A DNA stretch of 48,021 nt from Gammaproteobacteria bacterium (GTDB lineage: Bacteria; Pseudomonadota; Gammaproteobacteria; Steroidobacterales; Steroidobacteraceae). Shown piece by piece: positions 11,836 to 48,021 of the stretch. The number at the start of each line of letters is the position of its first letter. Position 1 is the stretch's first letter. The notes under the pieces are model-generated. The model was not told the DNA's origin, did no database searches, and was given only the letters and a program-made list of their open reading frames with translations. The position numbers and the translations under genes were made by a program. The stretch lies in NCBI GenBank assembly GCA_025355165.1, contig JANYAD010000241.1, forward strand, positions 1 through 48,021. Direction: 5' to 3'.

Positions 11836-14800
11836 CTAAATTATCCCACGCGCGTGCTTGCGCCGCTCGAGACGTCGATGCATACCGGCGAAAACGGCGG
11901 GCACGAAAAACAATGTTGAAAGAGTTGCAAACCCCAACCCGCCGATCACGGCACGGCCCAACGGTGCATTTTGCTCGGCACCCTCGCCGAGCCCGAGCGC
12001 CATGGGAATCATGCCGATTATCATGGCCAGGGCCGTCATCAGCACGGGGCGGATGCGGGTCGCCCCGGCGTCACGGGCGGCGCTCACCGGATCCAAGCCT
12101 TCGTTCATCCTCTGGCGAGCAAATGACACGATAAGAATGCTGTTGGCGGTAGCGACGCCCATGGTCATGATGGCGCCCGTCATCGCCGGCACGCTCAAAG
12201 TGGTGCCGCTCAAGAACAGCATCCAACAGATCCCGGCGAGTGCCGCCGGTAGAGCGGTGACGATGATGAATGCATCGATCCAGGATTGGAAATTCACGAC
12301 AATCAGAAGATAAACCATGACAATCGCCATCACGAGGCCCACGCCCAACTCGATGAACGAGGCACGCATGGTATGCGCTTGGCCGCGCACCAATATCGAC
12401 GCCCCACGCGGCAATTGCGGACGCATTGCCTCGACCAAGCCTTCGATTTGGGTTGTGATGCTACCCAAGTCCCGCCCTTGCACGCTGATGTAGACATCAA
12501 TGGTCGGGGCCAGGTTATAGCGCGAGCTGACAGCGACCTGGGCAGCCGGCGTTACGTTCACCAAGTTGCTCAGCAGTTGCGATGAAGTACCCGCGGGGTC
12601 GCGCACCGGGGTGCGCAACAGTGCATCCACGCTGTCAATTTGGTACTGCGGCGACTGAGCGGACACGTTGTAGACCACGCCGTTGGATGGATCCAGCCAG
12701 AAGCCCGGCGATGTCTGGGACGTGCCGGCCGTGGTGATGCGCAGATTCTGTGCCACGTCGCTGGCGCTCAATCCGACTGTTTGCAATTGCGTACGGTCCA
12801 TTTGCAGCGCCAGGGTCGGCAAATCCAGCCGCTGATGGATGTGAGTGTCTACGGCCCCGGGGATTTGCCTAATCTGCTTCATGAATTTCGAGGCCAATTC
12901 AAAATTCGTGCGCACATCGGCGCCGGTAAACATCACATCAATGGGAGCGGGCAGCCCAAAATTCAAAATCTGCGCCACCATGTCGGCCGGTTGAAAGAAG
13001 AACTCAACGCCCGGAAAGCGCTTAGGAAGTTGGCGGCGCAATTCCTCGACATAGCGCTGGGTCGAATGATGGCCTTGGTTGAGGGAGATTTGAATTTCAC
13101 CATCCAATGTCCCAAATGTACCGGCGTTGCTGTACGTATTGTTGATACTGCTGATCGCTACGCCCAGATTGTCCAGCACGGTCCCGAGCTCCTTGGCGGG
13201 CACCAGAGTTCGAATGAAGGTTTCGACTTGATCGGCCACGCGGGCAGTCTCCTCGATGCGCGTGCCGGAGGGCATACGCATGTGCATACGAATTTGACCT
13301 GCATCCACCGTCGGAAAGAAATCCCGTCCCAAGACGAATACCAGCGCGCAAGACAACATACAAAAGCTCAGAAAAGCGCTAGCGAAGGCACGCCGCCTGT
13401 CGAGGACTTCAGCCAGGATCTGGCTATAGGCATCCCGAAGCCTTTCGAAGCGTGCGTCGAATGCGCGATATATTCTTTGCAACGAGCTTTGGCGGGCGGC
13501 CGCGTGCGCCGTGTGATCCATCAGCATCATGACCAGAGTCGGTACCAGCGTACGCGAGAGAACGTAAGAAGCGAGCATGGCGAAGACCACGGCCTCCGCC
13601 AGCGGCGCAAATAAATAACGCGCCACGCCGCTCAAAAAAAACATCGGCACGAACACGATGCAGATACATAGGGTAGATACCAGCGCGGGCACCGCAATTT
13701 CTCCGGCACCGTCCAGGATGGCTTTGTGCAGATCCGATCCGAGATGAATGTGTCGTTCGATATTTTCGATCGTGACGGTGGCATCGTCGACCAAAATGCC
13801 GACCGCCAGAGCAAGCCCTCCCAAGGTCATGATGTTCAGGGTTTCCCCTGCAATGTACAGCGTGATGATGGAGCAGAGAATGGACAGGGGGATGGATATC
13901 GCGATGATGCAAGTGCTGCGCCAATTGCCCAGGAACAGTAAAATCAGGATCGCCGTTAGGCAGGCCGCGATCACGGCCTCGCGCACCACTCCGCTGATGG
14001 CAGCCCTGACGAAGCCGGATTGATCAAACAGAGGCGTGATCTTGAAGTCCTTCGGCAAGAGCTGGGCGACCGCCGGCAAAACCTCGCGCAGGGTTTTAAC
14101 GATGTCCAACGTGGAGGAGCCGCCATTCTTAAGCACGGGCATTAATACCCCGCGCTCGCCGTTTTGTCGCACGACATTGGTCTGGGGGGCGTATCCGTCT
14201 CGCACGTGCGCCACTTCGGACAAATAGGTGGTGGCACCATTCCTCGTGACGACCGGAATCCGGTTCAGCCCCGCAATGGTGTCGGGCGAACCGTTCAGCG
14301 CGATCGCATATTCGGTGGATGCGATCTTGACCGTCCCTGACGGCAATATCAGGTTTTGGGCGTTTACCGCATTGACCACATCGGTCGGTGTCAACCCCTT
14401 CGCCAGCAGCGCAGAGGTATCCAAATCGACGGAGATCAGACGAGTTTTTCCCCCGTACGGGAACGGCACTGCGGCGCCGGGGATGGTCACCAGACGCGGA
14501 CGCAAGAAATTAAAAGCAGCATCGAAAAGCGCAGGCTCTCCCAACGTAGCGCTGGAAATGCCCAGCTGTATGACCGGGATCGCGGAAGCCGAATACTTCA
14601 TGATCAGCGGCGGCAACGTTCCTGGCGGAAGCTGTTTCAGCTGCTGCTGCTCGATGGCCACAACCTGTGCAAGGGCGGTCGGAATATTGGCGCTCGGCTG
14701 AAAAAAGACCTTGGTGACGGACATGCCGGCAAAAGTCTGCGACTCGATGTGTTCGATATCCGTCACGGTCGTGGTCAGGGCGCGCTCAGCAACAGCGGTA

Positions 14801-32536: not shown

Positions 32537-32783
32537 GGTTAACTTAAATTTCGCCTTGTTTACTTATGGTTTTACCGCATTAACTTAAAAAACAATTTGT
32601 TTTTACACATCAGCAGCCGGGCCGGAAACGCATTTGTCAAGGGTTCGCGGGAGGGGAATATTCGTTTATTCTAGCTCATCGGAAAAGGGCTCGCCTCAAG
32701 AACCGAACTTGCCCGCACCGCCGCACTCAAATGGACCATCAATCGTGCGAAATGTAGACATAGTTGAAAATTGGCGGCGCTGG

Positions 32784-34145
32784 ATGAAGCTAACGATAGC
32801 CGTTTGCGCCGTTGTTTCGCTGAGCAGCTTCGCGCCGATTCCCAGCTTGATCGTCCAAATCAAGACGCTGGGTGAGCTGCGGGTAGTAACTCGCACCAGC
32901 CCGTTGGCCTTCTATCGCGGTTTTAACGGCCTCCCCGAAGGCCCCGAATACGAGCTCGCGCAACGTTTCGCGGATGAGCTTGGCGTGAAGCTCAAAATCA
33001 CGCCCATGCATAGTTATGCAGAAATCTACGCCGCCCTGACTTCTGGACAAGCACATGTGGCCGCTGCGGGACTCAAGGTTCCGATGCAATCGGTGCCGGG
33101 CATCGAATTTGGACCGGCTTATCAACACGTGCATGAGCATTTAATATATCGGCGCGGCGCTTTGCGGCCGGGCTCGCTTGCTGAAATCGGCAATTCTGAT
33201 TTGGAAATAGCGGCCGGCAGCTCGCACGCAAAGACTCTCCAGGACGCGCGCAATGCCAATCCCGAGTTGGTTTGGGTGGAGAATTCCAGCACCAATTCCC
33301 AGGCACTCTTGGATGGGGTCGCGGACGGCACCATTGACTACACGATCGCCGATTCGACTGAATTCGCATTAGCCCATGACCTGCATCCGGATCTTCGGAT
33401 CGCTTTTGACTTCCCGGGAAACCGTCCTCTGGCATGGGCAGCCAGCAATCACGATCCGAGCTTTGCAGGCGACATGGCGAAGTACTTCGCCCGCTTGAAG
33501 CTCAACGGCGACCTCGCGGCAATCGTAAATCGCTACTACGGCCGTTCCGAGGATGGCGAATTTGCAGGCGGCCCAGGATTCATGCGCCATTTGCAAAGTC
33601 GCTTGCCGCTTTATAAACAGTGGTTTGTGGAGGCCGCGGAACAAAGCAGCCAGGACTGGCGCTTGCTGGCGGCAATCGGCTACCAGGAATCCAAATGGAA
33701 TCCGCACGCATCCTCCTCCGCGGGCGCACATGGTTTGATGCAACTTACGCTCGACACGGCCAGCGAAGCGAAGGTGACCGATCTTTCGGACGCGAGGCAA
33801 AGCATCTTTGGCGGCGCGCGATATTTCCGCCAGGTCTATGCGAAGATTCCATCTCACGTTTCCGAGCCGGATCGAACCTGGTTCGCGCTTGCCGCGTACA
33901 ACATCGGGTACGGCCATGTGGAAGACGCACGCGTGTTGGCGCAAAAGGCCGGCCGTGATCCCGACTCTTGGCAGGAGGTGCGCGACTTTCTGCCATTGCT
34001 CGAGCAGGAACGCTGGTACACCCAGACCGAGAACGGCTACGCGCGCGGACGGGAACCTGTGCACTACGTCGACAACGTCCGCAGTTATCGCGACATGCTG
34101 GAATGGGCCTGGGGCGACGGCCCCAATGCGGCCGCACTGAATTAG
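32784..34145 (+). CDS. mltF: Membrane-bound lytic murein transglycosylase F
   Basis: A 453-residue protein. A signal peptide or anchor covers about 1-20, with no lipobox. A SBP_bac_3-type solute-binding domain covers about 28-255 (GELRVVTRTSPLAFYRG, AAGLKVP). The lysozyme-like SLT domain covers about 280-440, with the catalytic Glu in AAIGYQESKWNPHASSSAGAHGLMQLT, then WFALAAYNIGYGHVEDAR. It cleaves the MurNAc-GlcNAc bond of peptidoglycan to 1,6-anhydro-MurNAc. The frame opens at TTG 32634; ATG 32784 aligns with the E. coli MltF N-terminus. Its stop overlaps that of convergent tadA. Confidence 0.92.
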   Translation: MKLTIAVCAVVSLSSFAPIPSLIVQIKTLGELRVVTRTSPLAFYRGFNGLPEGPEYELAQRFADELGVKLKITPMHSYAEIYAALTSGQAHVAAAGLKVPMQSVPGIEFGPAYQHVHEHLIYRRGALRPGSLAEIGNSDLEIAAGSSHAKTLQDARNANPELVWVENSSTNSQALLDGVADGTIDYTIADSTEFALAHDLHPDLRIAFDFPGNRPLAWAASNHDPSFAGDMAKYFARLKLNGDLAAIVNRYYGRSEDGEFAGGPGFMRHLQSRLPLYKQWFVEAAEQSSQDWRLLAAIGYQESKWNPHASSSAGAHGLMQLTLDTASEAKVTDLSDARQSIFGGARYFRQVYAKIPSHVSEPDRTWFALAAYNIGYGHVEDARVLAQKAGRDPDSWQEVRDFLPLLEQERWYTQTENGYARGREPVHYVDNVRSYRDMLEWAWGDGPNAAALN

Positions 34146-34597
34146 CGGCGGCTTTCGAAAAATTGCCGCAACAAGCCTGCGGATTCCTCGCTGCAGACAC
34201 CGCCGAATACCTCCAGGCGATGAGTCAGTCGCGGCTCGCGCGGCAAATCGATGACGCTGCCGCAGGCACCCGCCTTGGCGTCCCACGCCCCGAACACCAC
34301 CCGCGCCAGCCGGGCATTGAGAACGGCGCCCATGCACATCGGACAGGGCTCCAAGGTGGCATAGAGGGTGGCAGCGCCTACGCGATAATTACGCAAGGCC
34401 TGCGCCCCGGCGCGCAGCGCGATGATTTCGGCGTGAGCCGTCGGATCGTGGGTAGCAATAGGCCTATTCCATCCCTCGCCAATCACCTCATGGTCGAATA
34501 CCAGCAATGCCCCAACCGGCACCTCTCCCTCGTCGGCGGCTCGCCGCGCAAGGAGCAGTGCGCGGCGCATGTACTCGGTATCGCTCGGGGTACTCAA
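34142..34597 (-). CDS. tadA: tRNA-specific adenosine deaminase TadA
   Basis: A 151-residue zinc deaminase of normal length. The active site is intact: H55-A-E57 (TAHAEIIAL) and PCPMC (C85, C88). VPVGALLV at residues 27-34 is typical. It converts A34 of tRNA-Arg(ACG) to inosine, an essential step. Its ATG overlaps the stop of the MFS gene by 4 bp (ATGA type), so the two are translationally coupled. Confidence 0.95.
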   Translation of the reverse strand: MSTPSDTEYMRRALLLARRAADEGEVPVGALLVFDHEVIGEGWNRPIATHDPTAHAEIIALRAGAQALRNYRVGAATLYATLEPCPMCMGAVLNARLARVVFGAWDAKAGACGSVIDLPREPRLTHRLEVFGGVCSEESAGLLRQFFESRR

Positions 34598-35844
34598 GGG
34601 GACGCCGCCGCTTGGCGCTGCCTGGCGATGCGACGGCCCACAAATATCGCGATATACAGCGCCAGCAGCGCCGCTGCACTGTAGCTCAAGGAATTGTGGA
34701 TACCGATGCTCGCACCGAGCAGGCCGACACTGAATCCGCTAAAGGTGCGCATGCCGTTAGCCGACATGGCAAATACGCCAATCACTCTGCCGCGAATCTC
34801 CGCAGGAGCGTTCAATTGCACCAAAGATTGCGCCATCGAATTGAACGCAAGTTCCAAGAATCCGGCGACAAACAACAGAGTGATCGCGATTCCATACGTG
34901 CTCGATCGCGCGAATCCCGCCAGCGCGCAACACCAAAGCATCGCCAAAATAAACGCCGTTCGCACCGTCGGGGGCAACAGTCCACCGCTTTCCAGCAACA
35001 CACCCGCCGACAGGCCGCCTGCGGCGTCCGCCGCCAGCAACATGCTGTATGTGAAGTCGGGGCGCCCAAGGCCTAAATCGACCGCAAATCCCGGCATTTG
35101 GGCCTGGTAGGCATTACCGATAAAAAACGCGGAAGCACCGACCAACACCGTCATCGCCAACAGCACGGGATTTTTTCGTACTACCCGCATCGTCGCAAAC
35201 ATATCGGCCAAACCCCTTAGCCCCTGCGGACGCGCCGGGGTCTTAGCACTGGAGCCATAAGGAGCTTTAATCAGCCAAAAAAACAGCGGCGCGTAAATCA
35301 GCGCATTAACCAAGATACCGCGAATGGGTCCGAGCCACAGCAGCAACGCACCGCCGACGGCTGGGCCCACCAAAAAGGCCAGGTAACGGCCCGTCGCATT
35401 GAGACGAACCGCGCTCGCGAGCTGCGCAGTGCCCACGATCTTGTGGATAAGAACTTGCGATGCCGGCATCCAGATGACTCCCGCTAGTCCGTGAATCAGC
35501 AGCAGCAGCATGGCTTTCCATTGCGCCGTGGACTCGGTGAGAAACATCACGCCCCATCCGATCGAAACCGCCATGAACAGCAGCATTCCCAGCTGAATGA
35601 GACGCCGGACATCGAAACGATCGGCCAACCCGCCCGTATAGGCGGCAAAGACAAGGTACGGCGCCCAGTGACTCACGACAGCAAAGGCGAGCAACGAGGG
35701 CGAGTGAAACTTTTGGAACACGACCCAATAGGAAATCACGTGCTCGATATTGTCCGCCATCATCGCCGCACTGCTGGCAAAGAATAAAATTCGAAAATCT
35801 CGAATCGAAAATGCAGTGGATGTGCGGGTCTGAGTAGCTTTCAA
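34594..35844 (-). CDS. MFS exporter (MFS_3 / enterobactin-exporter-like family)
   Basis: A 416-residue, 12-TM transporter. The N-terminal FRILFFASSAAMMADNIEHVISYWV is helix 1 of the group. The loop 2-3 motif is present as GGLADRFDVRRLIQLGM and LLIHGLAGVIWMPASQVLIHKIV is typical of MFS_3 proteins. A charged N-terminal tail and a C-terminal GRRIARQRQAAASP are cytoplasmic. The substrate is unknown; small-molecule export is likely. It is coupled to tadA downstream and diverges from the S46 peptidase. Confidence 0.87.
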   Translation of the reverse strand: MKATQTRTSTAFSIRDFRILFFASSAAMMADNIEHVISYWVVFQKFHSPSLLAFAVVSHWAPYLVFAAYTGGLADRFDVRRLIQLGMLLFMAVSIGWGVMFLTESTAQWKAMLLLLIHGLAGVIWMPASQVLIHKIVGTAQLASAVRLNATGRYLAFLVGPAVGGALLLWLGPIRGILVNALIYAPLFFWLIKAPYGSSAKTPARPQGLRGLADMFATMRVVRKNPVLLAMTVLVGASAFFIGNAYQAQMPGFAVDLGLGRPDFTYSMLLAADAAGGLSAGVLLESGGLLPPTVRTAFILAMLWCCALAGFARSSTYGIAITLLFVAGFLELAFNSMAQSLVQLNAPAEIRGRVIGVFAMSANGMRTFSGFSVGLLGASIGIHNSLSYSAAALLALYIAIFVGRRIARQRQAAASP

Positions 35845-35926
35845 GGGGCCGATTGTAAGTCCAAAGATCGTAGAAACAGTAGAATATCGTGCTGGCTTTG
35901 CACACTACAAGTAGACGAGGATTTCC

Positions 35927-37975
35927 ATGCGCGGATTTGTGCTCATCGCGGCATGCGCTGCCCTCCTACCCGCGCACGCGGATGAAGGGATGTGGACTTT
36001 CGACAACTTTCCTGCGGCAGCGGTAAAACGAGCTTTCGGCGCTGATATCACGCCGGCATGGCTCGACCATGTGCGGCTCTCGACCGCTCGACTGACGAAT
36101 TGCACTGCGGCCTTCGTATCCTCCTCGGGTTTAATCCTTACCAATCACCATTGCATTGAGTCATGCCTGGCTGAATTGTCCTCTAAAGAAGTAAGTCTGC
36201 TGCAACTAGGCTTCAATGCGCCCGCTCGCAGCGATGAAAAACGTTGCCCTGCGCAGCATGCCGATGTCCTGGTCGGCACCGAGAATATTACCGATGCAGT
36301 CCTGAAATCAGATTCAGGGCTCAACGAGGCTCAAGCCAACATCGCCCGCAAGCAATTACTGACTTCCTTGGAGGGGGCATGCCAGCAAGCAAGCGTGAGG
36401 GCAAAATCGGGTAAGCTTGAATGCCAAGCCGTGAAGCTTTATCAGGGTGGGCAGTATTTTCTATATAAGTACAAACGGTACTCCGATCTTCGTTTGGTGT
36501 TTGCGCCCGAGGCCGACATCGCCGCCTTTGGCGGGGATCCGGATAATTTTCAATTTCCGCGCTGGTCGCTTGATTTTTCAATCCTGAGAGCCTACGAGGG
36601 CAACAAACCGGCCAGAACAACCAGTTATCTGCAGCTCGATTTTTCCGGACCGAGAGTAGCTCAGCTGGTTTTCGTCGCGGGCAATCCAGGGACTACTGCG
36701 CGCCTGCAAACCCGTGCGCAACTCGAATTCCAGCGCGACGTTTCTTTGCCCATTGCTTTGCTGAGATCCTCGGAACTGCGCGGCCGCTTCATTCAATTCG
36801 GCAAGATTAACGCGGGTAATGAACGCATCATCCTTGCGCCTCTTAACAGCTTGCAGAACGGCATCAAAGTATGGCGAAAAGAGCTGGACGCGCTTCACGA
36901 CCGAGCGTTCCTCGACAGAACGATCGACGCGGAAGAGCAGTTGCGCAGAGCCGCGCAACTTGATTCACCGGATCCCTGGGATGAGATTGCGGAAGCCTCG
37001 CAGCGCGAGCGGGCGCTTTATCTGCCGCATCTGTTCCTCGAGAGCGGCGCCGGCTTTAGTAGCGCGCTGTTTCGCAATGCACGCCTCCTGGTCAGAGGAG
37101 CCGACGAGCGTCTGAAGCCCGACCAGGAGCGCTTGCGCGAATTTATTGACTCCGCACTGCCCTGGTTGCAGCGTGATTTGCTGGCGCGGGTGCCTGTATA
37201 TCCCGAAATCGAACAACTGACACTTTCTTTTTCTTTCGAGCGCATGCGCGAATGGCTGGGGCCGGACCATCCCATGGTGCGCAGGCTGATGAACAGCGAA
37301 ACACCCGATGAGCTGGCGACCCGTCTTGTCGCGGAAACCAAACTTGACGATGCCGCATTGCGCAAGCAGCTTTGGGAAGGCGGTAAAACTGCGGTCGATG
37401 CATCTCATGATCCCATGATCGAACTGGCACGCTCGGTGGACGGCGACGCCCGCGCCATCCGCCGACAATACGAAGATGAGGTGGAAGCGCCTACGCTGGC
37501 GGCGACGCAGAGGACCGCTGCGGCGCGCTTCAAAGTCTACGGCACGAATACCTATCCGGACGCCACCTTCACGCCGCGCCTGAATTACGGTACGGTCCAA
37601 GGGTGGGTTGAAAATGGCGCGATGCTCGACCCCGTTACCCATCTCGATCGTGCATTCGAGAGAGCCACAGGCTCCTCGCCGTTTAAGATTCCCGCCAGCT
37701 GGATGAAGGTTAAAACCCGATTGGACTTGAGTACGCCTTTTTGCATCTCGACCAACAACGACATCGTCGGGGGAAATTCGGGAAGTCCCTTAATCGACGT
37801 AGCAGGTAAAATAGTGGGCTTAATGTTCGACGGCAACATACACTCAATTGCCGGCCGCTATTGGTTCGACCCTAAAGATAATCGCGCCATCGCTTTGCAT
37901 CCCGCCATCATTCGCGAAGCGCTCGACAAAGTTTACGGTGCCCGGCAGTTATTGGCAGAACTCGATGGGAAATGA
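35927..37975 (+). CDS. S46-family dipeptidyl peptidase (DPP7-like)
   Basis: A 682-residue periplasmic or outer-membrane-facing protease. The signal peptide is cut after AHA (residue 18); mature DEGMWTFDNFP is the S46 signature. Catalytic residues are His in LTNHHC (74-75), Asp in WSLDFSILR (about 223) and Ser618 in GGNSGSPL. Eighteen residues after the Ser there is Gly636 (LMFDGN). In S46 enzymes Gly here goes with DPP7-type preference for hydrophobic P1, whereas Arg gives DPP11-type Asp/Glu preference. The enzyme releases dipeptides from N-termini, supporting growth on peptides. GAGG precedes the ATG. Confidence 0.92.
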   Translation: MRGFVLIAACAALLPAHADEGMWTFDNFPAAAVKRAFGADITPAWLDHVRLSTARLTNCTAAFVSSSGLILTNHHCIESCLAELSSKEVSLLQLGFNAPARSDEKRCPAQHADVLVGTENITDAVLKSDSGLNEAQANIARKQLLTSLEGACQQASVRAKSGKLECQAVKLYQGGQYFLYKYKRYSDLRLVFAPEADIAAFGGDPDNFQFPRWSLDFSILRAYEGNKPARTTSYLQLDFSGPRVAQLVFVAGNPGTTARLQTRAQLEFQRDVSLPIALLRSSELRGRFIQFGKINAGNERIILAPLNSLQNGIKVWRKELDALHDRAFLDRTIDAEEQLRRAAQLDSPDPWDEIAEASQRERALYLPHLFLESGAGFSSALFRNARLLVRGADERLKPDQERLREFIDSALPWLQRDLLARVPVYPEIEQLTLSFSFERMREWLGPDHPMVRRLMNSETPDELATRLVAETKLDDAALRKQLWEGGKTAVDASHDPMIELARSVDGDARAIRRQYEDEVEAPTLAATQRTAAARFKVYGTNTYPDATFTPRLNYGTVQGWVENGAMLDPVTHLDRAFERATGSSPFKIPASWMKVKTRLDLSTPFCISTNNDIVGGNSGSPLIDVAGKIVGLMFDGNIHSIAGRYWFDPKDNRAIALHPAIIREALDKVYGARQLLAELDGK

Positions 37976-39616: not shown

Positions 39617-40759
39617 TTAGGGTGGGTACGCAATATCTGGAACGACACCCTTTGGTGCGCGAACATAAGCGCGAATCAGCTCCGCTTCCGCTGCCCGATA
39701 TGGCGTTCCGTCTGCGCGTAACACGTCGTGATGCCAGACAACAGGTTCACGACCGCCAGTATATGGGACAGACCAGCTATCCCATGGCAGTCGAGTCTGG
39801 GTCTTTCCGTCGACAAAACCCCAATTGAACATTGCTATGTTCCGCCGCTTTGCGATTGGCAAAATGGCCTCGAACGTGGATCCCGCGCCGCGCGCGAGAT
39901 ACTCCGTGCACAGGACAGGACGGCCTTGTACGCGAAGCTTCGCTACGTCTGCCGCGAATGACTCTGGCCAACTGTAGCTGTGAAAAGAAAGAACATCAGA
40001 TTCTGCCAGCTGCTCTCTTTCAATATCTGTCGGCAGATCTTTGGACCATCCACGGTCCGCTCCTCCAATGAGGGGGCTTGTCAGCGGCTGACTCGGGTTC
40101 GCGCCTCTCGCCCACGCGAACGCTTTGGTCATTAGCTCAGCAACCCGAGCCGCGTCCTCTGGTTTCTCGGCACCCGGTTCGTTCCAAACATCCCAGCCAA
40201 GGACGCGCTTATCGTTGGCAAATGCGCCGACAACGCCCTGCACATAGCGCTCGAGGCGCACTTCCTGCGACCTATCACGAACTGCTGTCAGCCCTGGACT
40301 TTGGACCCATCGCGAATTGTGAATACCCGGTATAGGGGGATTCTGCGAGCCAAGATGAGGTTCGGCCTCCCAGCAGCTATCAAACAGCACGAACAACACG
40401 CGGAGATGATGCTTCGAACTGATGGCGAGGAATGTGTCAATCCGCTGCCGAAAACCTCTCGCATCTTGCTCCCAAAGCAGATCATGCAGAAACACACGAA
40501 CGACGTTCATGCCAAGGTTTTCGGCCCAACCGAGTTCCATGTCGATGCGCACTGGATTGAACGATACTGGTTGCCACATCTCAAGCTCGTTGGAGGCATC
40601 TGCGGGGATGTAGTTGACGCCAATCATCCAGGGCTGAGCCTCGTACCAGTCATTTGCGTGAGTTGCCGTCCACCGCTCTCGTGCCTCCGCAACCATCGAT
40701 GTTGTGAGGGCTACGACGAGAAAAGTCGCGCGGATCAATATAGTGCAGAGTCCCGACAT
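39617..40759 (-). CDS. Secreted GH5-like glycoside hydrolase
   Basis: A 380-residue protein. The signal peptide covers about 1-24 (ILIRATFLVVALTTSMVAEA). A clan-A (beta/alpha)8 hydrolase follows, starting at WMIGVNYIPADASNELEMW. The acid/base Glu is in VLGWDVWNEPG (near residue 190) and the nucleophile Glu in VLCTEYLARG (near 285). His in SFHSYSWP and Trp in FNWGFVDGKTQTRLPWDSW are active-site neighbours. Relatives are annotated as cellulases or 1,4-beta-xylanases; the true substrate is unknown. ATG 40759 has TAGGA upstream; the frame opens to 41155, but that extension is not protein-like. Confidence 0.82.
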   Translation of the reverse strand: MSGLCTILIRATFLVVALTTSMVAEARERWTATHANDWYEAQPWMIGVNYIPADASNELEMWQPVSFNPVRIDMELGWAENLGMNVVRVFLHDLLWEQDARGFRQRIDTFLAISSKHHLRVLFVLFDSCWEAEPHLGSQNPPIPGIHNSRWVQSPGLTAVRDRSQEVRLERYVQGVVGAFANDKRVLGWDVWNEPGAEKPEDAARVAELMTKAFAWARGANPSQPLTSPLIGGADRGWSKDLPTDIEREQLAESDVLSFHSYSWPESFAADVAKLRVQGRPVLCTEYLARGAGSTFEAILPIAKRRNIAMFNWGFVDGKTQTRLPWDSWSVPYTGGREPVVWHHDVLRADGTPYRAAEAELIRAYVRAPKGVVPDIAYPP

Positions 40760-41221
40760 GAATCCTACGTGCTTAGGATTGTGGCGTGATGCGCGGCCGG
40801 CAGACAACGCATTGAGAAATAAATCCGATGACGGCCCCACAAGATCCGGAACCTCATCATGGGCCTTAAATGCAGTGGATGCGTTTTCAATCATGGAGCT
40901 TCCCACTATATAACTATCTTTGTATCCGCGATCCCCTGCAAACAAGTTGTCAGCGGGGCAACGCTCTCTCCGATACATCGAATTCACAAGAATACTGATA
41001 AATCCGATTTTTTCAGTGTTATCGCCGGGGTAGAGCACGAAGTCAAATGCGCTCGCAGCTGCCCAGGAAAATATCGACAATCTCTGGGCGGATAGTACTT
41101 TCAAACCACCTCCTCTGCCGTCGCTTCCCGGAAAAACTCTTGCCTGAATCCCCACCGTCCCCCACCTTGCGGCAGGGATCTCGAGACGCAGATCTCCTTT
41201 TATCCGTCTGCACTACTGTGG
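40760..41221. other. Intergenic stretch, no gene seen
   Basis: The minus-strand frame of the GH5 gene stays open here but its translation is unlike a signal or domain. It should contain the GH5 promoter. No RNA gene or repeat is recognised. Confidence 0.35.
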
Positions 41222-41604: not shown

Positions 41605-41922
41605 ACGCAAAATCCGCCATTGCGACATGCGCCAACCACGCCACGGTTATCGACGATTTCCCGCCGCACGAAGGCATGGATCGGGGGCGTGCAAGCGGTG
41701 GTTCGAAGATTTCCAGTCGATGTCAAAGATAAAAGGGATCACGAATCCACGCATCTCGGTCGAGCCGGCGTCGCACACCGAATTGACCAGGGACTTCCCC
41801 TACGCGGTGGTCCCGGTCAAGTTGTCTTTTGATCGCAAAGGGGAACGCGTCACGGACAACGGGATAATGACGGTGGCTTTGCGGCAATACGCTCGGCGGC
41901 TCGGTAGTTCATCTCTATAGCA
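41598..41922 (+). pseudogene. NTF2/SnoaL-like protein, frameshifted
   Basis: One frame reads KSAIATCANHATVIDDFPPHE up to about 41664; with one base missing (the T of a TGG), the next frame continues HGSGACKRWFEDFQ, GITNPRISVEP, then FPYAVVPVKLSFDRKGERVTDNG and MTVALRQ. This is the common layout of NTF2/SnoaL-like (DUF4440-type) proteins, whose usual ending GWR[IV] seems lost to another shift near 41893. No start codon is obvious. It directly follows the PH-like pseudogene, so this stretch has decayed as a block. Confidence 0.5.
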
Positions 41923-41930
41923 CCGATCTC

Positions 41931-41952
41931 ACCCGACCGGGGCGGGTCGGGT
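41931..41952 (+). terminator. Hairpin next to the first guaA-like attachment core
   Basis: ACCCGACC (41931-41938) and GGTCGGGT (41945-41952) form a perfect 8-bp stem with a 6-nt loop, followed by TTAT. It may terminate the transcript of the decayed genes to its left, or belong to the end of a mobile element. Confidence 0.45.
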
Positions 41953-42000
41953 TTATGCCAGTTTCACCTTGTTTCCGGGGAGTTACGGTAGGCAGCCGAC

Positions 42001-42027
42001 TCACTCCTACTCAATGGTCGCCGGCGC
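42001..42027 (-). repeat. Attachment core copy A (guaA 3'-end-like)
   Basis: On the minus strand the 27 bp read GCG CCG GCG ACC ATT GAG TAG GAG TGA, that is APATIE-stop-E-stop. Apart from TGG to TAG this is the C-terminal codons of GMP synthase (APATIEWE-stop). There is no guaA body on either side, so it is a displaced copy of a known integration site. Confidence 0.65.
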
Positions 42028-42072
42028 GCATAACGACCTAATTACTCGAGACTTTTCGAGGCATCGCGTCGC

Positions 42073-42140
42073 TTTTACCGTCAGATCTACCGTCAATACA
42101 CCCCGCTTGGTGCCGATAGTGGGCGATAGACGGCGAAAGA
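42073..42140 (+). repeat. Arm-type repeat block A
   Basis: TTTTACCGTCA is followed 12 bp later by CTACCGTCA, then GCCGATAGTG, GGCGATAGAC and GGCGAAAGAC in a 10-bp tandem. The helical spacing suggests integrase arm sites. It lies 45 bp right of core A. Confidence 0.55.
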
Positions 42141-42254
42141 CTCGATCCATCCAATGCCACTGCGCGAACGAAGACCGAAATTTTCCCGAACAGGCTTCTC
42201 TATCGGCAGGAATGATGATGATTTTCAAACGGCCGACAACACGCTTTCATTTAG

Positions 42255-42833
42255 TCGCGAAGTCAATTGGTGAACTATTCGAGTCTGGGGGCGCCACTTA
42301 GCATGAACCATGTGACGACGCGGAAGTATGCTGACATTTTTGAGAAACTGTTCCTCATCCGAACGCTTGAGCCTTGGTATTCCAACGAACTCAGGCGACT
42401 CGTCAAGACGCCCAAACTCCACTTCCTTGATTCCGGACTGCTGGCTGCCATGCGGAATCTTTTTCCCGTTCGACTGCAATCCGACCGCACGCCCTTTGGG
42501 CCGCTTCTCGAAACCTTTGTTCTTGGCGAACTCCTCAAGCTCGCAAGTTGGAGCCCTGAGCGGTACGATTTTTTCCACTTCCGCGACCGATACAACCACG
42601 AGGTTGATATCGTCATCGATAATCAGGATGGCCAGGTCGTCGGCATCGAAGTCAAGGCTTCTGCTACCGTCCGAGGGGATGATTTCACCGGTCTGCGCAA
42701 GCTGGCGGAAGCCAGCGGCAAACGCTTCGTACTCGGTCTCGTGCTCTACGATCACGATACTATCGTGCCATTCGGACAGCGGATGTTCGCGGCGCCGATT
42801 TCTACGTTGTGGGGAGAAGGGAACGCGCAGTAA
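42255..42833 (+). pseudogene. DUF4143 (AAA-type ATPase) C-terminal fragment
   Basis: About 190 codons of the C-terminal DUF4143 region: SLGAPLSMNHVTTRKYADI, LVKTPKLHFLDSGLLAAM, FGPLLETFVLGELLKLASW, NHEVDIVIDN and GIEVKASATV, the last two being the nuclease-like core. The N-terminal AAA ATPase half (about 200 residues with the P-loop) is absent; an in-frame TAG at 42252 and the arm repeats at 42073-42140 lie where it should be. The gene was cut by the element boundary. A few family-like residues may continue upstream in another frame. Confidence 0.8.
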
Positions 42834-42890
42834 GCAGCCGAGAAACTGACGCGGCCGAAGGCGCAAGCACATTGGCACGCATGACGATCG

Positions 42891-44363
42891 TCAACCGCCG
42901 GCCTCAGGCAAGATATTTTGATTCGAGCGAAACAGGTTGCCAGAATCGTACCGCGCCTTTATCTTCGCCAGCCGAGGATAATTCACCCCATAGATTTCCC
43001 GGATCCTTTCCGGTGGGCTGGGCGGGATGTAATTCACGTAGGCGCGGTGCGCCCATGGACGCAGGGCCGTTCCATACTCCGCCACCCATTGCTGCGACCG
43101 TGCGCGGTCCTCTGGCCGGGTCCATTCGGAGGACAGAATCACACTCAGTCCCGTCCCGCGGAGCGGGTACGCGGTATCAGTCATTCCGATGCGCGCCGCC
43201 ACGCCGCTCGAGAGACCCATCAAGATGTCACCATATCCGCGTCCAGCGATGGCTGCTCGCGCCAGCACACCTGCGGCCCCATCGCTGACGCCCTCCAGGA
43301 ACGCGCCGTCGACAGCCACGGACGTGCTCGCCCAGACTTCCCCTTCGGGATTGGGCGTGGAGGTCGACATTTTCGCATCGAATCGCCGAAATGCCGCTCT
43401 CCACTTCTCAAGATAAGCGGCCGCGGCGGCCGGATCGCCTAGGAAACCGCAGGTCGCCGACGCGCCGGTCTCCGCTCTGACCGCAAACACCGCCCTGACC
43501 TCATCCGGCGTCTCGCGCACGAGACCACCAAAAGCCCGCATGGCCTCGCCGATACCGCTCCAGCCGAATTCAAAGTGGGCGTTGTGCGACGTCAGAACGG
43601 GGTACAGTCTGAAATCCAGACGAGTGACGACGCCGAAGTTACCGCCGCCGCCACGTATCGCCCAGTACAGGTCCTCGTTCTGCTGGGGCCCGAGTTCCAG
43701 CACCGCTCCGTCGGCAGTCACGAGTTGCGCACCGATTAGGTTGTCGCAGGCCGTCCCGTACAAGCCTCTCCCGGCTGTATCGCCTCCCGCGAGCGTTAGG
43801 CCTGCAACGCCAACGGAGCCGCAGCTTCCCATCGGCGTAACCAATCCGGCCGCCAACGTTGCCGTGAGCAATTCTCGAATCCTCGTACCGCCGCACACCG
43901 AGGCGACGCGGCGGCCCTGATCAACCGTGACAGTCGTGAACGCGCCGAGATCTACCTGAAGCGCGCCATCGGCCACACCAAAGCCTGCATAGCTATGGCC
44001 ACCCCCACGGATGGCGACGGGAACACTGTGCCGTCGCCCGAATTCCACGCAGCGCCGCACGTCGTCGATGTCCACACAGCGCGCCATCGCGAGCGGATGG
44101 CGATCGTAGGCCAGGTTCCAAACCTTCCTTGCGCCGTCATAGCCGGGCGACCCATCGCGGAGAAAGCGCCCATGCAGGCTTTGACCAAGATCGTCGAGAT
44201 CGGCAGCAGCTCCGATCGCGGCAGAACCACGCGGCATGCTGGTATGCGCGCAGGCACCAAGCGCGACGGCACAGGCCGTGGCAAGACCAGCGTTGACAAA
44301 ATCGCGACGGGTCCAGTGGGGCTGGTCGATACGGTAGTCGGTCAATGGCTGGTGCTCGGTCAA
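42891..44363 (-). CDS. FAD-linked oxidase (berberine-bridge-enzyme-like), Tat-exported
   Basis: About 490 residues. A twin-arginine-like signal lies near the N-terminus (WTRRDFVNAGLATACAVALGA). The FAD_binding_4 domain has VPVAIRGGGHSYAGFG (the His that often binds FAD covalently), VCGGTRIRELL and GSVGVAGLTLAGG, and the C-terminal BBE motif is VNYIPP...YPRLAKIKARYDSGNLFRSNQNI. Such enzymes oxidise sugars, alcohols or alkaloids with O2. The start is uncertain: TTG 44363 is chosen because it begins just before the Tat signal; the frame extends to 44444. It is intact, unlike its neighbours, and is the main cargo between cores A and B. Confidence 0.8.
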   Translation of the reverse strand: MTEHQPLTDYRIDQPHWTRRDFVNAGLATACAVALGACAHTSMPRGSAAIGAAADLDDLGQSLHGRFLRDGSPGYDGARKVWNLAYDRHPLAMARCVDIDDVRRCVEFGRRHSVPVAIRGGGHSYAGFGVADGALQVDLGAFTTVTVDQGRRVASVCGGTRIRELLTATLAAGLVTPMGSCGSVGVAGLTLAGGDTAGRGLYGTACDNLIGAQLVTADGAVLELGPQQNEDLYWAIRGGGGNFGVVTRLDFRLYPVLTSHNAHFEFGWSGIGEAMRAFGGLVRETPDEVRAVFAVRAETGASATCGFLGDPAAAAAYLEKWRAAFRRFDAKMSTSTPNPEGEVWASTSVAVDGAFLEGVSDGAAGVLARAAIAGRGYGDILMGLSSGVAARIGMTDTAYPLRGTGLSVILSSEWTRPEDRARSQQWVAEYGTALRPWAHRAYVNYIPPSPPERIREIYGVNYPRLAKIKARYDSGNLFRSNQNILPEAGG

Positions 44364-44565
44364 TAGCGCTAAATCAGTTTGAAGGTACAACAATTCCGCG
44401 CCTCGCGCCTCGCAGAACGTAGCTCGCCATATCGCGCGGACCAAACCTCAGGATCGAATTTTTCACTTGAGCGTTCAATCGCGTCCGCAGGGTTTTTGCC
44501 AGTTTCACCCTTTAGGGGGTTACGGATTGAATGCGAACCGTGGCAAAACTCTGTAGGGAGCTCCC

Positions 44566-44592
44566 TCACTCCCACTCAATCGTCGCCGGCGC
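44566..44592 (-). repeat. Attachment core copy B (guaA 3'-end-like, intact codons)
   Basis: The minus strand reads GCG CCG GCG ACG ATT GAG TGG GAG TGA, encoding APATIEWE-stop, the canonical end of GMP synthase. No guaA frame continues upstream of it (the sequence at 44593-44636 is unrelated). It differs from copy A at 2 of 27 positions. Confidence 0.7.
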
Positions 44593-44636
44593 TCGTAAGC
44601 ATTTGAAAACAGTCGACTCCGTGCCGGGGCATGGCA

Positions 44637-44699
44637 ATTTTACCGTCAGGTCTATCGTCAAAACATTTCGCTTGGGGGCGATAGAAGGCGATAGATGCC
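44637..44699 (+). repeat. Arm-type repeat block B
   Basis: ATTTTACCGTCA and CTATCGTCA lie at 12-bp spacing, then GGCGATAGAA and GGCGATAGAT in a 10-bp tandem. It starts 44 bp right of core B, the same geometry as block A, and is about 80 percent similar to block C by eye. Confidence 0.6.
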
Positions 44700-44755
44700 G
44701 AAAAGGTCGAGGTACTCCGGCAGCCATGCGACGCGAATAGCGATCAATGGATCAT

Positions 44756-45046
44756 TTAGCTGCCGAGAACTCCCGGCACGTTTCGGGCACCGTGAAGCGC
44801 TCGCAATATGAGTGCGCCGTCTTCGGACTGCTCGAAGACGATCAGGTAATTTCCGTGTGCGCAAATCCGTATCGTGTCGCCCAGGTCTGGACGCACCACG
44901 TAGTGATGCGGTCCCTCAGCAATCTTTTCGCAGCGTTGTCGCATCTCGCGAATGAACGAAACAGCGCGCCCAGGATTGTCGAGCGCGATGTTGTCGCCGA
45001 TCTCCTCCAAGTCAATTTCGGCTTGTGCCGTGAAGTGCGCGCGCAG
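44756..45046 (-). CDS. parE: ParE/RelE-family toxin
   Basis: A 96-residue toxin if translated from CTG 45046, the codon directly after the antitoxin stop (AAG TGA CTG). This yields RAHFTAQAEIDLEEIGDNIA, the standard ParE N-terminus, then MRQRCEKIAEGPHHYVVRPDLG, ICAHGNYLIVFEQ and ILRALHGARN. The only conventional start in frame is TTG 45010, which would drop the first strand. Either CTG is used through coupling to parD, or the start has mutated and the toxin is weak or silent. ParE toxins inhibit gyrase; the pair would stabilise the mobile element. Confidence 0.75.
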   Translation of the reverse strand: MRAHFTAQAEIDLEEIGDNIALDNPGRAVSFIREMRQRCEKIAEGPHHYVVRPDLGDTIRICAHGNYLIVFEQSEDGALILRALHGARNVPGVLGS

Positions 45047-45313
45047 TCACTTCGCGCGTTCTTTGACCATTCTGGTGTACTTGCGTTCCAGACGGTCAAG
45101 TACCTCGGCGGTGGGTTTCGGCTTGCCGCTGCGGCGACCCCTTTCGATTTCGCCACGTAGACCGTGGATTTCCGCCTTGCGACGCTGCTGCTCTTCTTCC
45201 AGAAGTCGCAGCCCATCCCGAATGACCTCGCTGGCGGAGGCGTAACTTCCGCCCTCCACCTGTTCTTTAACGAAGTGCTCAAAGTGGTCACCGATTGTGT
45301 AGCTTGAGGGCAT
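45047..45313 (-). CDS. parD: ParD-family antitoxin
   Basis: An 88-residue antitoxin. The N-terminal ribbon-helix-helix covers residues 3-40 (TIGDHFEHFVKEQVEGGSYA, SASEVIRDGLRLLEEEQQ). A charged C-terminal toxin-binding tail follows (RSGKPKPTAEVLDRLERKY). ParD neutralises ParE and represses its own operon. ATG 45313 has GGAG 10 bp upstream. parE follows without a gap. Confidence 0.88.
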   Translation of the reverse strand: MPSSYTIGDHFEHFVKEQVEGGSYASASEVIRDGLRLLEEEQQRRKAEIHGLRGEIERGRRSGKPKPTAEVLDRLERKYTRMVKERAK

Positions 45314-45330
45314 GACTCAAAGTCTCCGCA

Positions 45331-45356
45331 TATCATGACTATCGTAATATATCATA
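45331..45356 (-). promoter_or_regulatory. AT-rich parDE control region
   Basis: On the plus strand TATCAT occurs at 45331-45336 and again at 45350-45355, 19 bp apart, inside a very AT-rich stretch just upstream of the parD ribosome-binding site. It probably contains the promoter and ParD operator; exact -10 and -35 boxes are ambiguous. Confidence 0.35.
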
Positions 45357-45425
45357 AACTGATACTACATGCGAGATTGAGGATCTGCGCGCGGCCTTCG
45401 AACTTACGACCAGATATCAAGCGCC

Positions 45426-45709
45426 TCACCGGCAGGCCATCCAGAAGACAATAAGCAGGCCGCCTTTCGCGATGAATGCGTCGATTTGATTCGCTTGATC
45501 CCGTGGCGCGAATGGGCGATATATATAAAGCCGATCAGCCAGTGCTCCAGCCCGTCGCAGATGAAAATCAGACTTCGTTGGACCCACTCGAACTGACCGC
45601 ATATCTCGTTCAAGGCATCTGGCGCAGCGATCGCCGCAAACCTTAGCGGCCCGGGGCTGAAGGAGTACTCCTCCCATCGCAGTCCTAGGCGTCGGTAAAC
45701 GACGATCAA
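45426..45709 (-). pseudogene. Unrecognised small gene, apparently frameshifted
   Basis: One frame reads ELIVVYRRLGLRWEEYSFSP and LNEICGQFEWVQRSLIFICDG as far as about 45535; a second continues ADRLYIYRPFAPRDQANQID and AKGGLLIVFWMACR-stop. Both halves look protein-like and together would make a compact alpha/beta protein of about 95 residues. No conventional start (TTG 45709 at best) and no family recognised. It lies between ParDE and the M20 hydrolase in element 2. Confidence 0.3.
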
Positions 45710-45860
45710 CTCATTGTCGCTCGAGTTCGCAGTCTTTCGCCTCTTCTCGCGGTTTTCGGCGTCAATCGCGGACCCGAGTCACGGCGAATGTCGCAAATCG
45801 ACCCATTGCTGCCGGTCTCGAATGTCTGGTATTGAGTGGTGAACTATTTGCTCGAATTGA

Positions 45861-47171
45861 CTAACGATCGAGCGCACCTGCATCGATAGCCAGTATCGTA
45901 CGCAGCAACACGTTTACGCCGTGCACGATATCTGCGGGAGCAGTGTATTCGCGTGGCGAATGGCTTATACCGCCTACGCTTGGCACGAAAATCATGCCGA
46001 TTGGAGCTATGTGAGCAATGTCTTGCGCATCGTGCCCGGCGCCGCTCGGCATCGCCATTGTCGTCAGCTCAAGCGCACGTGCCGCACCATCGATGATGTG
46101 CTGAATACGGGGGTCGGTCAGTGCTGGCACGGCGGTCGCTTCGAGGTCTCGGAATTCGATGCTGGTGCCATGAGCCTGGGCAATCTCCCCAGCGCGTGCG
46201 CGGACCCGCTCGAACACAGCCTCGATCCGTGCCGCATCGAGATCCCGCACTTCGATGCTGAGTACAACTCTGCCGGGGATCACGTTAGGCGCTCCCGGCT
46301 CCGCCCGGATCTGACCCACGGTCGCAACTTGTCGGCCCGACATGCCTGTCGCCGCGCCGTTCACTGCCATCACCAGCTCGGATGCCGCGAGCAGCGCATC
46401 GTGACGTTGATCCATCGGGGTAGTCCCCGCGTGGTTCGCGACGCCAGTGACGGTCGCCTCCCACCAGTGAATGCCAACGATACCCTGCACGACGCCAATG
46501 TTGGTATGGGTGTGCTCGAGTATGCCTCCCTGCTCAATGTGCAGCTCCACGTAGGCAGTGAGATCACCAGGACTGCGCTGGGCGTGGCCGACGGCATCCG
46601 GATCACCACCGAGGGCGCGGATTCCATCGCGCACACTACGGCCGCTACTGTTCACGAGCTCCAGGGTAGCCGCTGACAGTTCTCCGGCCATGGCCCTGCT
46701 GCCCACAAGCCCACCTTCTTCGTCGGTGAAGTCGACAATCTCGAGCGCATGGCGCAGCCGGACGTGTCGATCGCGCAGCTGCTGCGCAGCCTCGATGCCT
46801 CCGATCACACCAACATCGCCATCGTAGTTGCCACCTTGCGGGACAGAATCCGTGTGCGAGCCTACAACGATCATCGGTAGCTTCCGGTCGGTGCCTTCGC
46901 GGCGGCCGATAAGGTTGCCTGCGGCGTCGATTCGCACATCGAGTCCCGCGGCCTCCATCAGACTCTTTACGTAGGCACGACCGGCAATATCCGCGTCGCT
47001 ATATGCCACTCGACTGACTCCGCCCTCCGGATTTGCGCCCAAATGCGACAGCTCGGTCAGATGCTGCTGCAACCGCCCTGAATCCGCATCCGGTACCTGC
47101 AGCCGCGAAGCCGGCGCTGCGATACCGGGAAGAAAGAGCACAACCGCGCACCAAATCCGCTTGTTGCCCAT
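45861..47171 (-). CDS. Exported M20-family amidohydrolase (N-carbamoyl-L-amino acid hydrolase / allantoate amidohydrolase type)
   Basis: A 436-residue protein. The signal peptide covers about 1-20 (WCAVVLFLPGIAAPAS). The catalytic domain has the di-metal ligands: His in VVGSHTDSVPQGG, Asp in NYDGDVGVI, Glu in DFTDEEGG, His in VELHIEQGG and His in GGISHSPREY. A dimerisation/lid domain sits between about 215 and 330. The family hydrolyses N-carbamoyl amino acids or allantoate; a secreted form points to use of external ureido compounds. Intact and close to full length; ATG 47171. Confidence 0.87.
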   Translation of the reverse strand: MGNKRIWCAVVLFLPGIAAPASRLQVPDADSGRLQQHLTELSHLGANPEGGVSRVAYSDADIAGRAYVKSLMEAAGLDVRIDAAGNLIGRREGTDRKLPMIVVGSHTDSVPQGGNYDGDVGVIGGIEAAQQLRDRHVRLRHALEIVDFTDEEGGLVGSRAMAGELSAATLELVNSSGRSVRDGIRALGGDPDAVGHAQRSPGDLTAYVELHIEQGGILEHTHTNIGVVQGIVGIHWWEATVTGVANHAGTTPMDQRHDALLAASELVMAVNGAATGMSGRQVATVGQIRAEPGAPNVIPGRVVLSIEVRDLDAARIEAVFERVRARAGEIAQAHGTSIEFRDLEATAVPALTDPRIQHIIDGAARALELTTMAMPSGAGHDAQDIAHIAPIGMIFVPSVGGISHSPREYTAPADIVHGVNVLLRTILAIDAGALDR

Positions 47172-47785
47172 AAATCAATTCCCGAATAACACCGCTCTGC
47201 GGGCGGCCATTTCACGCAGCTATCATTTCACTCACGCGGGAACGCCATTCCGTGAGGCCCGCTAGGCCGCTCAAGGGTATCGAACCCCAGACCATCGATC
47301 CGAACGATCTTCTTCGCTGACATAGTGGCTTCGTTCAACTTCACGCACGCTTAAGATCTCAGCCTACCGCATCCCGCGAGCGACCGCTTCAGGGGCCGCA
47401 TTTTTGCCCTGTGAAGGGCCGCTTTTGGGCCGAGAACGGCCCGATTGTTGGCTCCCCACCCGCCATTCGCAGGAACACTTCAACAATCCGTCCTTGGCGC
47501 GCAAAAGGGCGTAGTGAGAATCGAAACTATCAACAAGTGAAACACCGGTGTCGGCTTGCGTTTGTGGGAGTTTCCGGTGTATTTCCCCCGAAACTCCCCG
47601 GTGTATCGGTACGCACTCTATGGGATGCTTTCCAACATGAAGTTCGGACTTAGAGATTTCGACCCGTCGCTAGCCTCGGGATTCGCCGTCGACGGCAAAC
47701 TCTACGATTTCCCAAGCTCGGCGATCCGGCGTGGCAGAACCTCCATTATTTGCCGACTTTCGCGCGCTCCGCGTATCGGCTTGAC
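47172..47785. other. Stretch without a recognised gene
   Basis: Short open frames on the plus strand (47411-47653, 47640-47873) match nothing I know. It holds the inverted repeat at 47566-47598 and GGCC-rich near-repeats around 47390-47445 (GGGGCCGC, AGGGCCGC, CGGCCCG). Confidence 0.4.
47566..47598. repeat. Inverted repeat
   Basis: GGGAGTTTC (47566-47574) and GAAACTCCC (47590-47598) form a perfect 9-bp stem with a 15-nt loop; CGGTGTA follows each arm as a direct repeat. The function is unknown. Confidence 0.4.
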
Positions 47786-47940
47786 GGTAAAATTCCGAAC
47801 CAGAACGCCGAGGAGAATTTTACCATCAGATTTACCGTCAAAACCATTCGCTGGGGGCGATAGATGTAGATAGACGGAGAAAAGCTATCTTTGATATTTC
47901 AGTGAGTTATGCCCGGGAGCCGATAGATGGCGATAGATCC
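47786..47940 (+). repeat. Arm-type repeat block C
   Basis: GGTAAAATTC (47786-47795) and GAATTTTACC (47815-47824) are a perfect inverted pair. The second arm opens the block TTTACCATCA and TTTACCGTCA at 12-bp spacing, then GGCGATAGAT and GTAGATAGAC. A further pair, GCCGATAGAT and GGCGATAGAT (10-bp tandem, 47920-47940), ends 12 bp from core C. It shares consensus with blocks A and B but lies left of its core. Confidence 0.55.
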
Positions 47941-47952
47941 CAAACGGCCAAT

Positions 47953-47966
47953 TCACTCCCACTCAA
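47953..47966 (-). repeat. Attachment core copy C (14-bp guaA-end match)
   Basis: TCACTCCCACTCAA is identical to the matching part of copy B and reads LEWE-stop on the minus strand. Beyond it the sequence diverges from guaA. The last 55 bp of the window hold ACGGGTAC twice (48003-48010, 48014-48021) and no gene. Confidence 0.5.
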
Positions 47967-48021
47967 GGGCGTACCCATATATAAATCAACCACATAACAG
48001 TTACGGGTACGTCACGGGTAC

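Follow-up and report, generated by a model that had tools for sequence, protein, structure and literature searches.

How do the last codons of guaA, the GMP synthase gene, come to stand three times, in one orientation and without the body of the gene, in a single contig of a Steroidobacteraceae genome? The stretch analysed here (the window; 48,021 nucleotides) is the entire contig JANYAD010000241.1, C257 in our numbering, and a first-pass annotation made from its letters had taken the three copies (A, B and C) as attachment (att) cores of tyrosine-integrase elements stacked at guaA, which it placed to the right of the window. Our analysis upholds the stacking of att cores at guaA, but the islands with integrases of their own fall away, as the units that the cores delimit, and the stretches between them, yielded no integrase catalytic domain. 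Instead, the three copies are probably the att cores of a non-autonomous, integron-like array of cassettes at guaA, moved in trans by integrases of the IntG type. Underlying this are the structure of the sites and their uniform orientation, units without an integrase catalytic domain that recur in differing contexts, and arms that are common with IntG loci.

Read on the minus strand, copy A gives APATIE-stop-E-stop, with an in-frame TAG, and copy B gives APATIEWE-stop, while copy C is the 14-mer TCACTCCCACTCAA, which agrees with the guaA end of its own genome in the first 14 of 14 bases and then diverges (17/27 identical over the full length). Letters, positions, strand and shared orientation are as first reported, and the window indeed lacks a guaA body. 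Chance repeats and dispersed pieces of guaA are excluded: with one mismatch or fewer, the 13-mer CACTCCYACTCAA occurs three times in the window, where 100 shuffles gave 0.04 on average, and TCACTCCCACTCAA occurs four times in the 4.16-Mb assembly, at copies A, B and C and at the guaA end (C104:42-55), in every case on the plus strand of its contig. The 27-mers are therefore not dispersed repeats of this genome. The only guaA match (PF00958) in the genome, C104:48-323 on the minus strand, ends in the same bases, and the three cores align with that end, as had been anticipated. Contig C104 stops 41 bp past the guaA stop codon; the window contig ends 55 bp beyond copy C, so that we infer the join to guaA in this genome. 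No overlap between the ends of C257 and C104 was found among the loci examined, the search for a bridge having left out the genome's other contigs.

Copies A and B form the left edges of conserved attachment sites of about 140 bp. Sites of several genomes have about 110 bp in common on the right-hand side of the core, a stretch that contains TTTACCGTCA-type and GCGATAGA-type repeats, the arms. A sequence-only model of nine sites detected such sites in 35 of 116 genomes searched (E <= 0.001), this one included, with stricter filters under which weak matches were lost. In a leave-source-out test the model recovered 9/9 training sites (E 1e-10 to 2.3e-33), and it gave no match against reversed sequence. 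Beside copy C, a model trained without the window found a match to the arms only (E 2.7e-9). Copy A carries a stop and a base change in its core, some sites elsewhere are partial, and arm-only remnants occur. None of the 45 site loci, a few of which overlap or share a contig, had matches on both strands (81 matches, E <= 1e-6), and wherever a locus contained both a site and the guaA end, the latter lay on the opposite strand (19/19 loci on 18 contigs), as the att-core reading predicts. Direct copies of the guaA 3' end, in one orientation, thus mark the borders of the units, as in guaA-specific elements of the IntG type.

The other side of each site is conserved as well. The roughly 70 bp before the core fall into two related classes, c1 and c2, which units of unrelated cargo have in common; a third class, c3, occurs at guaA, with IntG or a transposase fusion alongside. 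Matches outside the training sets included c1 in G011 (1.6e-14) and G004 (1.3e-10) and c2 in G019 (8.5e-19) and G001 (6.5e-17). The models of c1 to c3 contain 12 bp of the core, so that the next core is partly built into these matches; no core adjoins a c1 match in L105 (E 3.9e-11) or a weak c3 match in L053. Site B has c1 before it; before site C stand c3 and, at a distance of about 72 bp, an arm, an arrangement also seen at guaA in G065. Unit B-C therefore has both ends of an IntG-type element and no integrase.

Absence of an integrase is general among the units. We delimited 33 core-to-core units in 18 genomes (586-5167 bp, median 2565), namely those in the examined loci with both limits placeable on one contig; the right limit of the unit in L105 was set from an arm copy. 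When the 1291 reading frames of these units were compared by phmmer with 74 query frames from integrase loci, which were the two longest frames of each locus and so partly belonged to neighbouring genes, no integrase catalytic domain was matched, and the same queries recovered IntG in L123 and L127. Only three unit frames matched: the transposase fusions of G040 and G042, through their arm domain, and one frame whose query, from a reading of its letters, is the neighbouring ATPase gene of one locus, and which we do not count as an integrase. Two IntG proteins, used as tblastn queries, matched nothing besides IntG next to guaA except a transposase fusion (L063, L117), in its arm domain. Neither scan found a degenerate integrase within the units. 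A search for Phage_integrase took in 21 of the 35 carrier genomes, 16 of the 18 unit-bearing genomes among them, with matches listed down to E of about 5e-10, and the genome of the window was searched separately; in the 17 of 18 unit-bearing genomes so covered, all listed matches lay outside the units. G040 stood outside these searches, its unit being included in the tblastn and phmmer scans. On five guaA contigs a listed match lies 29-50 kb away. With no IntG-type integrase inside them, the units are not classed as autonomous IntG elements. The fusions themselves (L063:434-1432, L129:11679-12770, L117:6961-7956, and also L177) join an IS6/IS240-type DDE transposase to a C-terminal P4-integrase arm-binding domain; such a fusion sits beside the guaA arm, in the usual place of IntG, in both G040 and G042.

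These results bear on the possibility that the array is a fossil stack, in which ordinary IntG islands inserted one after another and were eroded by deletion to a few cargo genes. Erosion of full islands is possible, for unit B-C in particular, whose right end is of the IntG type and whose integrase is absent; the mutated copy A, the partial sites and the arm-only remnants would fit it too. However, the 33 units hold no integrase remnant save the transposase-fusion arm domain in two, many have c1 or c2 right ends of their own, unlike IntG islands, and the same unit is found across genera with its limits at the core. We therefore consider a fossil stack an unlikely explanation of the array.

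Recurrence was seen in G024 and G069, which share one unit (85.7% identity) from 4 bp before its start through the end of the following site. A unit common to G001 and G022 (81.9%) is similar from just inside the left site to 26 bp past its end; what comes next is guaA in G022 and another site in G001. G001 also shares a unit with G008 (pieces of 80% and 78%), with a close copy in G022, and other units compared had only parts of their cargo in common. Some units thus recur across genera with similarity bounded at the core. In G017 a 165-bp flank is followed directly by guaA; in G021 the flank, identical at 163 of 165 positions, is followed by a 3.5-kb unit and then by guaA. Such patterns might also arise by RecA-dependent homologous recombination between similar sites of 140-200 bp, with no site-specific integrase involved today, and the cassettes' sites are indeed similar, while a close IntG is not resident in the genus. 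However, cassette and guaA have only 14-27 bp in common, which is short for RecA exchange, yet cassettes stand directly at guaA, and the switch between G017 and G021 falls inside the core. Exchange by RecA thus seems to us quite improbable.

The units carry mostly one to a few recognisable genes. Of 40 unit open reading frames (ORFs) scanned, which were picked mainly by size, 30 had a Pfam match (E <= 0.01), in some cases below the curated cut-off, and 10 had none. The matches include VapB/PIN, HigB, AbiE with a SIR2 protein, AbiEii/DUF6036 nucleotidyltransferases, AAA-DUF4143, Fic, YceI, two glutathione S-transferases, a P450, MFS and POT transporters, an amino-acid permease with an amidohydrolase, an ornithine cyclodeaminase, a TonB receptor and DUF4331.

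If the units are moved in trans, the enzyme is likely to resemble the integrase that adjoins guaA in G065 (L123:10220-11476) and G070, a P4-type protein of 418 amino acids with arm-binding, middle and catalytic domains. Its N-terminal 70, 50 and 27 residues stand at contig ends in G069, G054 and G035, respectively. Among its relatives in named genomes, of which the best 80 of 250 were taken (59-100% identical, Mesorhizobium included), IntG lies 287-320 bp from the guaA end in 73, the arm of our site model lies between the two (E <= 1e-3) in 59, and both hold in 55. The arm repeats of the sites are accordingly those found between guaA and IntG in IntG-type elements. A contig of a metagenome-assembled genome (L207) encodes a 94%-identical IntG, with a full site between IntG and guaA and a weaker one beyond IntG. 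In G035, a Fic cassette on contig C4 (L116) is followed by a full site within which the contig breaks off, contig C9 (L122) ends 27 codons into IntG beside guaA, and the two ends may join in the order guaA, IntG, cassettes.

We propose the following model. A cassette would consist of the core, about 46 bp, the arm repeats, the cargo and a right end running into the next core, and cassettes would be inserted one behind another at the guaA 3' end. A tyrosine integrase of the IntG family (P4 type), encoded elsewhere on a guaA island or some other element and acting in trans, would bind the arms and exchange strands within the 14 bp TCACTCCCACTCAA. Recombination between two neighbouring sites would excise the cassette as a circle, which could then be inserted at guaA or at a cassette boundary, with the last codons of guaA kept. 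Catalysis by IntG in trans, the circles and activity in the present day are what we infer from the structure of the loci.

Several points weigh against this proposal. Neither a circular form nor movement has been observed. The genome of the window has no IntG homologue at E <= 1e-40, and the genus has no IntG of high identity, its best matches being about 41% identical or less. The array looks partly decayed, judging from the changes in copy A and the partial sites, and unit B-C, because of its IntG-island right end, could be an island that lost its integrase. The right ends of some sites fall outside all three classes. In G001 the 16 site matches, full or partial, are spread over six contigs, none of them its guaA contig, and spacings of 0.7 kb and more were measured only where both limits share a contig. 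Trans-mobilised cassettes nevertheless account for most of the observations.

The placement of guaA to the right of the window is best supported by the relative G011, in which guaA, five full sites and the outer neighbours of the array (genes for an S46 peptidase, an MFS protein and MltF) lie on a single contig; in the genome of the window itself the join is presumed. Between guaA (C35:10294) and the S46 gene (about C35:43.2 kb), G011 has two arm copies besides the full sites, which are at 13096, 14056, 15327, 20083 and 29215. Over 122 bp on the right of C, G015 is 88.5% identical to the window; beyond this stretch it has the start of an ORF, resembling that of a VapB antitoxin when read by eye, then a further full site, a SnoaL-domain cassette of 0.7 kb, and guaA. 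This layout makes it probable that the genome of the window, too, has further cassettes between C and guaA. A ACGGGTACGT-type repeated motif, which is perhaps a second type of arm, replaces the usual arms to the right of core C (47967-48021) and is common to G015 (L139). The relevant relatives are mostly draft assemblies, some with 5-7% estimated contamination, and several contigs, including the guaA contig of this genome, stop no more than a few hundred bases from the guaA end; repeats or a mixture of strains could be the cause. Another kind of tandem guaA copy was seen in L053, L054 and L055 (G033, G060 and G046), where copies are spaced 0.8-7.4 kb apart, some hold at least 83 bp of the guaA end, and the arm repeats of the site model are absent.

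The features of the window are collected in Table 1. About 480 bp of the oxidoreductase cargo of unit A-B are 80% identical in an array contig of G017 (C4). The remnant in the same unit is possibly that of a DUF4143 protein; the plus-strand ORF overlapping it had no Pfam match. A gene for a GH5-type glycosidase (39617-41155), left of site A, possibly belongs as cargo to another unit, for which no left site was found. We did not locate the left limit of the array: the flank left of A fits a c1 right end weakly (E 0.001), and no further core was found there on the same strand at up to 7/23 mismatches. Six small ORFs of the window matched nothing in Pfam at the E-values used, and positions 41900-42200 had no DNA similarity to plasmid records.

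Table 1. Array features and outer flank in the window (positions in the 48,021-nucleotide stretch).
Feature	Position	Strand	Details
att core A	42001..42027	-	guaA C-terminal codons with in-frame TAG; 25/27 bases as in guaA end
att core B	44566..44592	-	APATIEWE-stop; 25/27 bases as in guaA end
att core C	47953..47966	-	14 bp, taken as the minimal shared core; 14/14 as in guaA
Full attachment site A (core, spacer, arm repeats)	42000..42139	+	E 1.6e-23, model trained without the window
Full attachment site B	44565..44703	+	E 1.5e-31, model trained without the window
Remnant in unit A-B	42397..42677		90% match to array contig G008:C66 (blastn)
Unit A-B cargo: FAD-binding/berberine-bridge-type oxidoreductase gene (FAD-linked oxidase)	42891..44444	-	PF01565, PF08031
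Right end of unit A-B, class c1	44499..44566 (start approximate)	+	E 2.6e-20, copy itself in training set
Unit B-C cargo: M20-family peptidase gene	45861..47171	-	PF01546, PF07687
IntG-island-type right end	47816..47966	+	Arm repeats 47816-47881 (E 2.7e-9), then class c3 into core C (E 2.6e-7, outside c3 training set)
Probable beginning of a further cassette, cut by contig end	47967..48021		47901-48021 88.5% identical to G015 beside guaA
Outer chromosomal flank: MltF, MFS and S46 peptidase genes	32634..37975		Same order on G011 guaA contig

Integrons and integrase-less attC clusters (CALIN) consist of small cassettes arrayed in one direction, and an integrase may or may not lie nearby; the present arrays resemble them in layout, in their small units of one or two genes and in their toxin-antitoxin cargo. 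The present arrays differ from them in having no link to IntI and no folding site, and in their target, guaA. IntI was found above the curated cut-off in 2/10 array genomes, on array-free contigs, and not in the genome of the window; on neither strand do sites A and B fold better than shuffled sequence (z 0.47 to 1.30), as assessed without a dedicated attC model; and the core is the end of guaA. The layout is integron-like, whereas the IntI and folding results do not support membership, and we consider a true integron or a CALIN highly improbable. Whether the arrays represent a cassette system independent of integrons, with open-ended, one-directional arrays at guaA and two-sided att sites that circulate among gammaproteobacterial genera through IntG-type integrases in trans, is to our minds evenly balanced. 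If so, small gene cassettes can be gathered in ordered arrays without IntI and attC, by means of an integrase of the phage type and an essential gene's end, and single toxin-antitoxin, Fic, transporter and enzyme genes would have a route to the guaA hotspot without an island. The sites also offer a searchable signature of about 200 bp for mobile DNA that is expected to escape island finders based on integrases.

Recombination sites also delimit the tandem or cargo-only units of the staphylococcal cassette chromosome elements at rlmH, dif modules and tycheposons, some of which lack a recombinase of their own; these differ from the present arrays in their recombinases and target sites. Our searches of one open-access library listed no title or abstract on integrase-less cassette arrays at guaA, and in the parts of PMC13310844 consulted guaA serves only as a typing gene. 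According to the sections of PMC8627217 used here, the tripartite integrative and conjugative elements (ICEs) of Mesorhizobium have IntG among their three integrases and guaA among their integration sites. This IntG belongs to the same family at guaA (about 60% identity), with the same arm repeats beside the gene. In contrast, those ICEs are large and conjugative and encode their own integrase, and the present cassettes are neither conjugative nor integrase-bearing.

The closest parallel is GIsul2, likened here to the present arrays by layout and target. As described in the portions of PMC9376610 drawn upon, it has three att sites at guaA, with an integrase-less CR2-sul2 unit between an internal and an end att site, and its integrase excises and inserts that unit in recA-deficient E. 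coli. Like the CR2-sul2 unit, which is non-autonomous and mobilised in trans, our units lie between two att sites at guaA without an integrase of their own. Unlike them, the CR2-sul2 unit is, in those portions, a single unit on one integrase-bearing island. What sets the present loci apart from this precedent is scale and form: arrays of many unrelated cassettes with conserved ends of their own, in which the assembled units are integrase-less.

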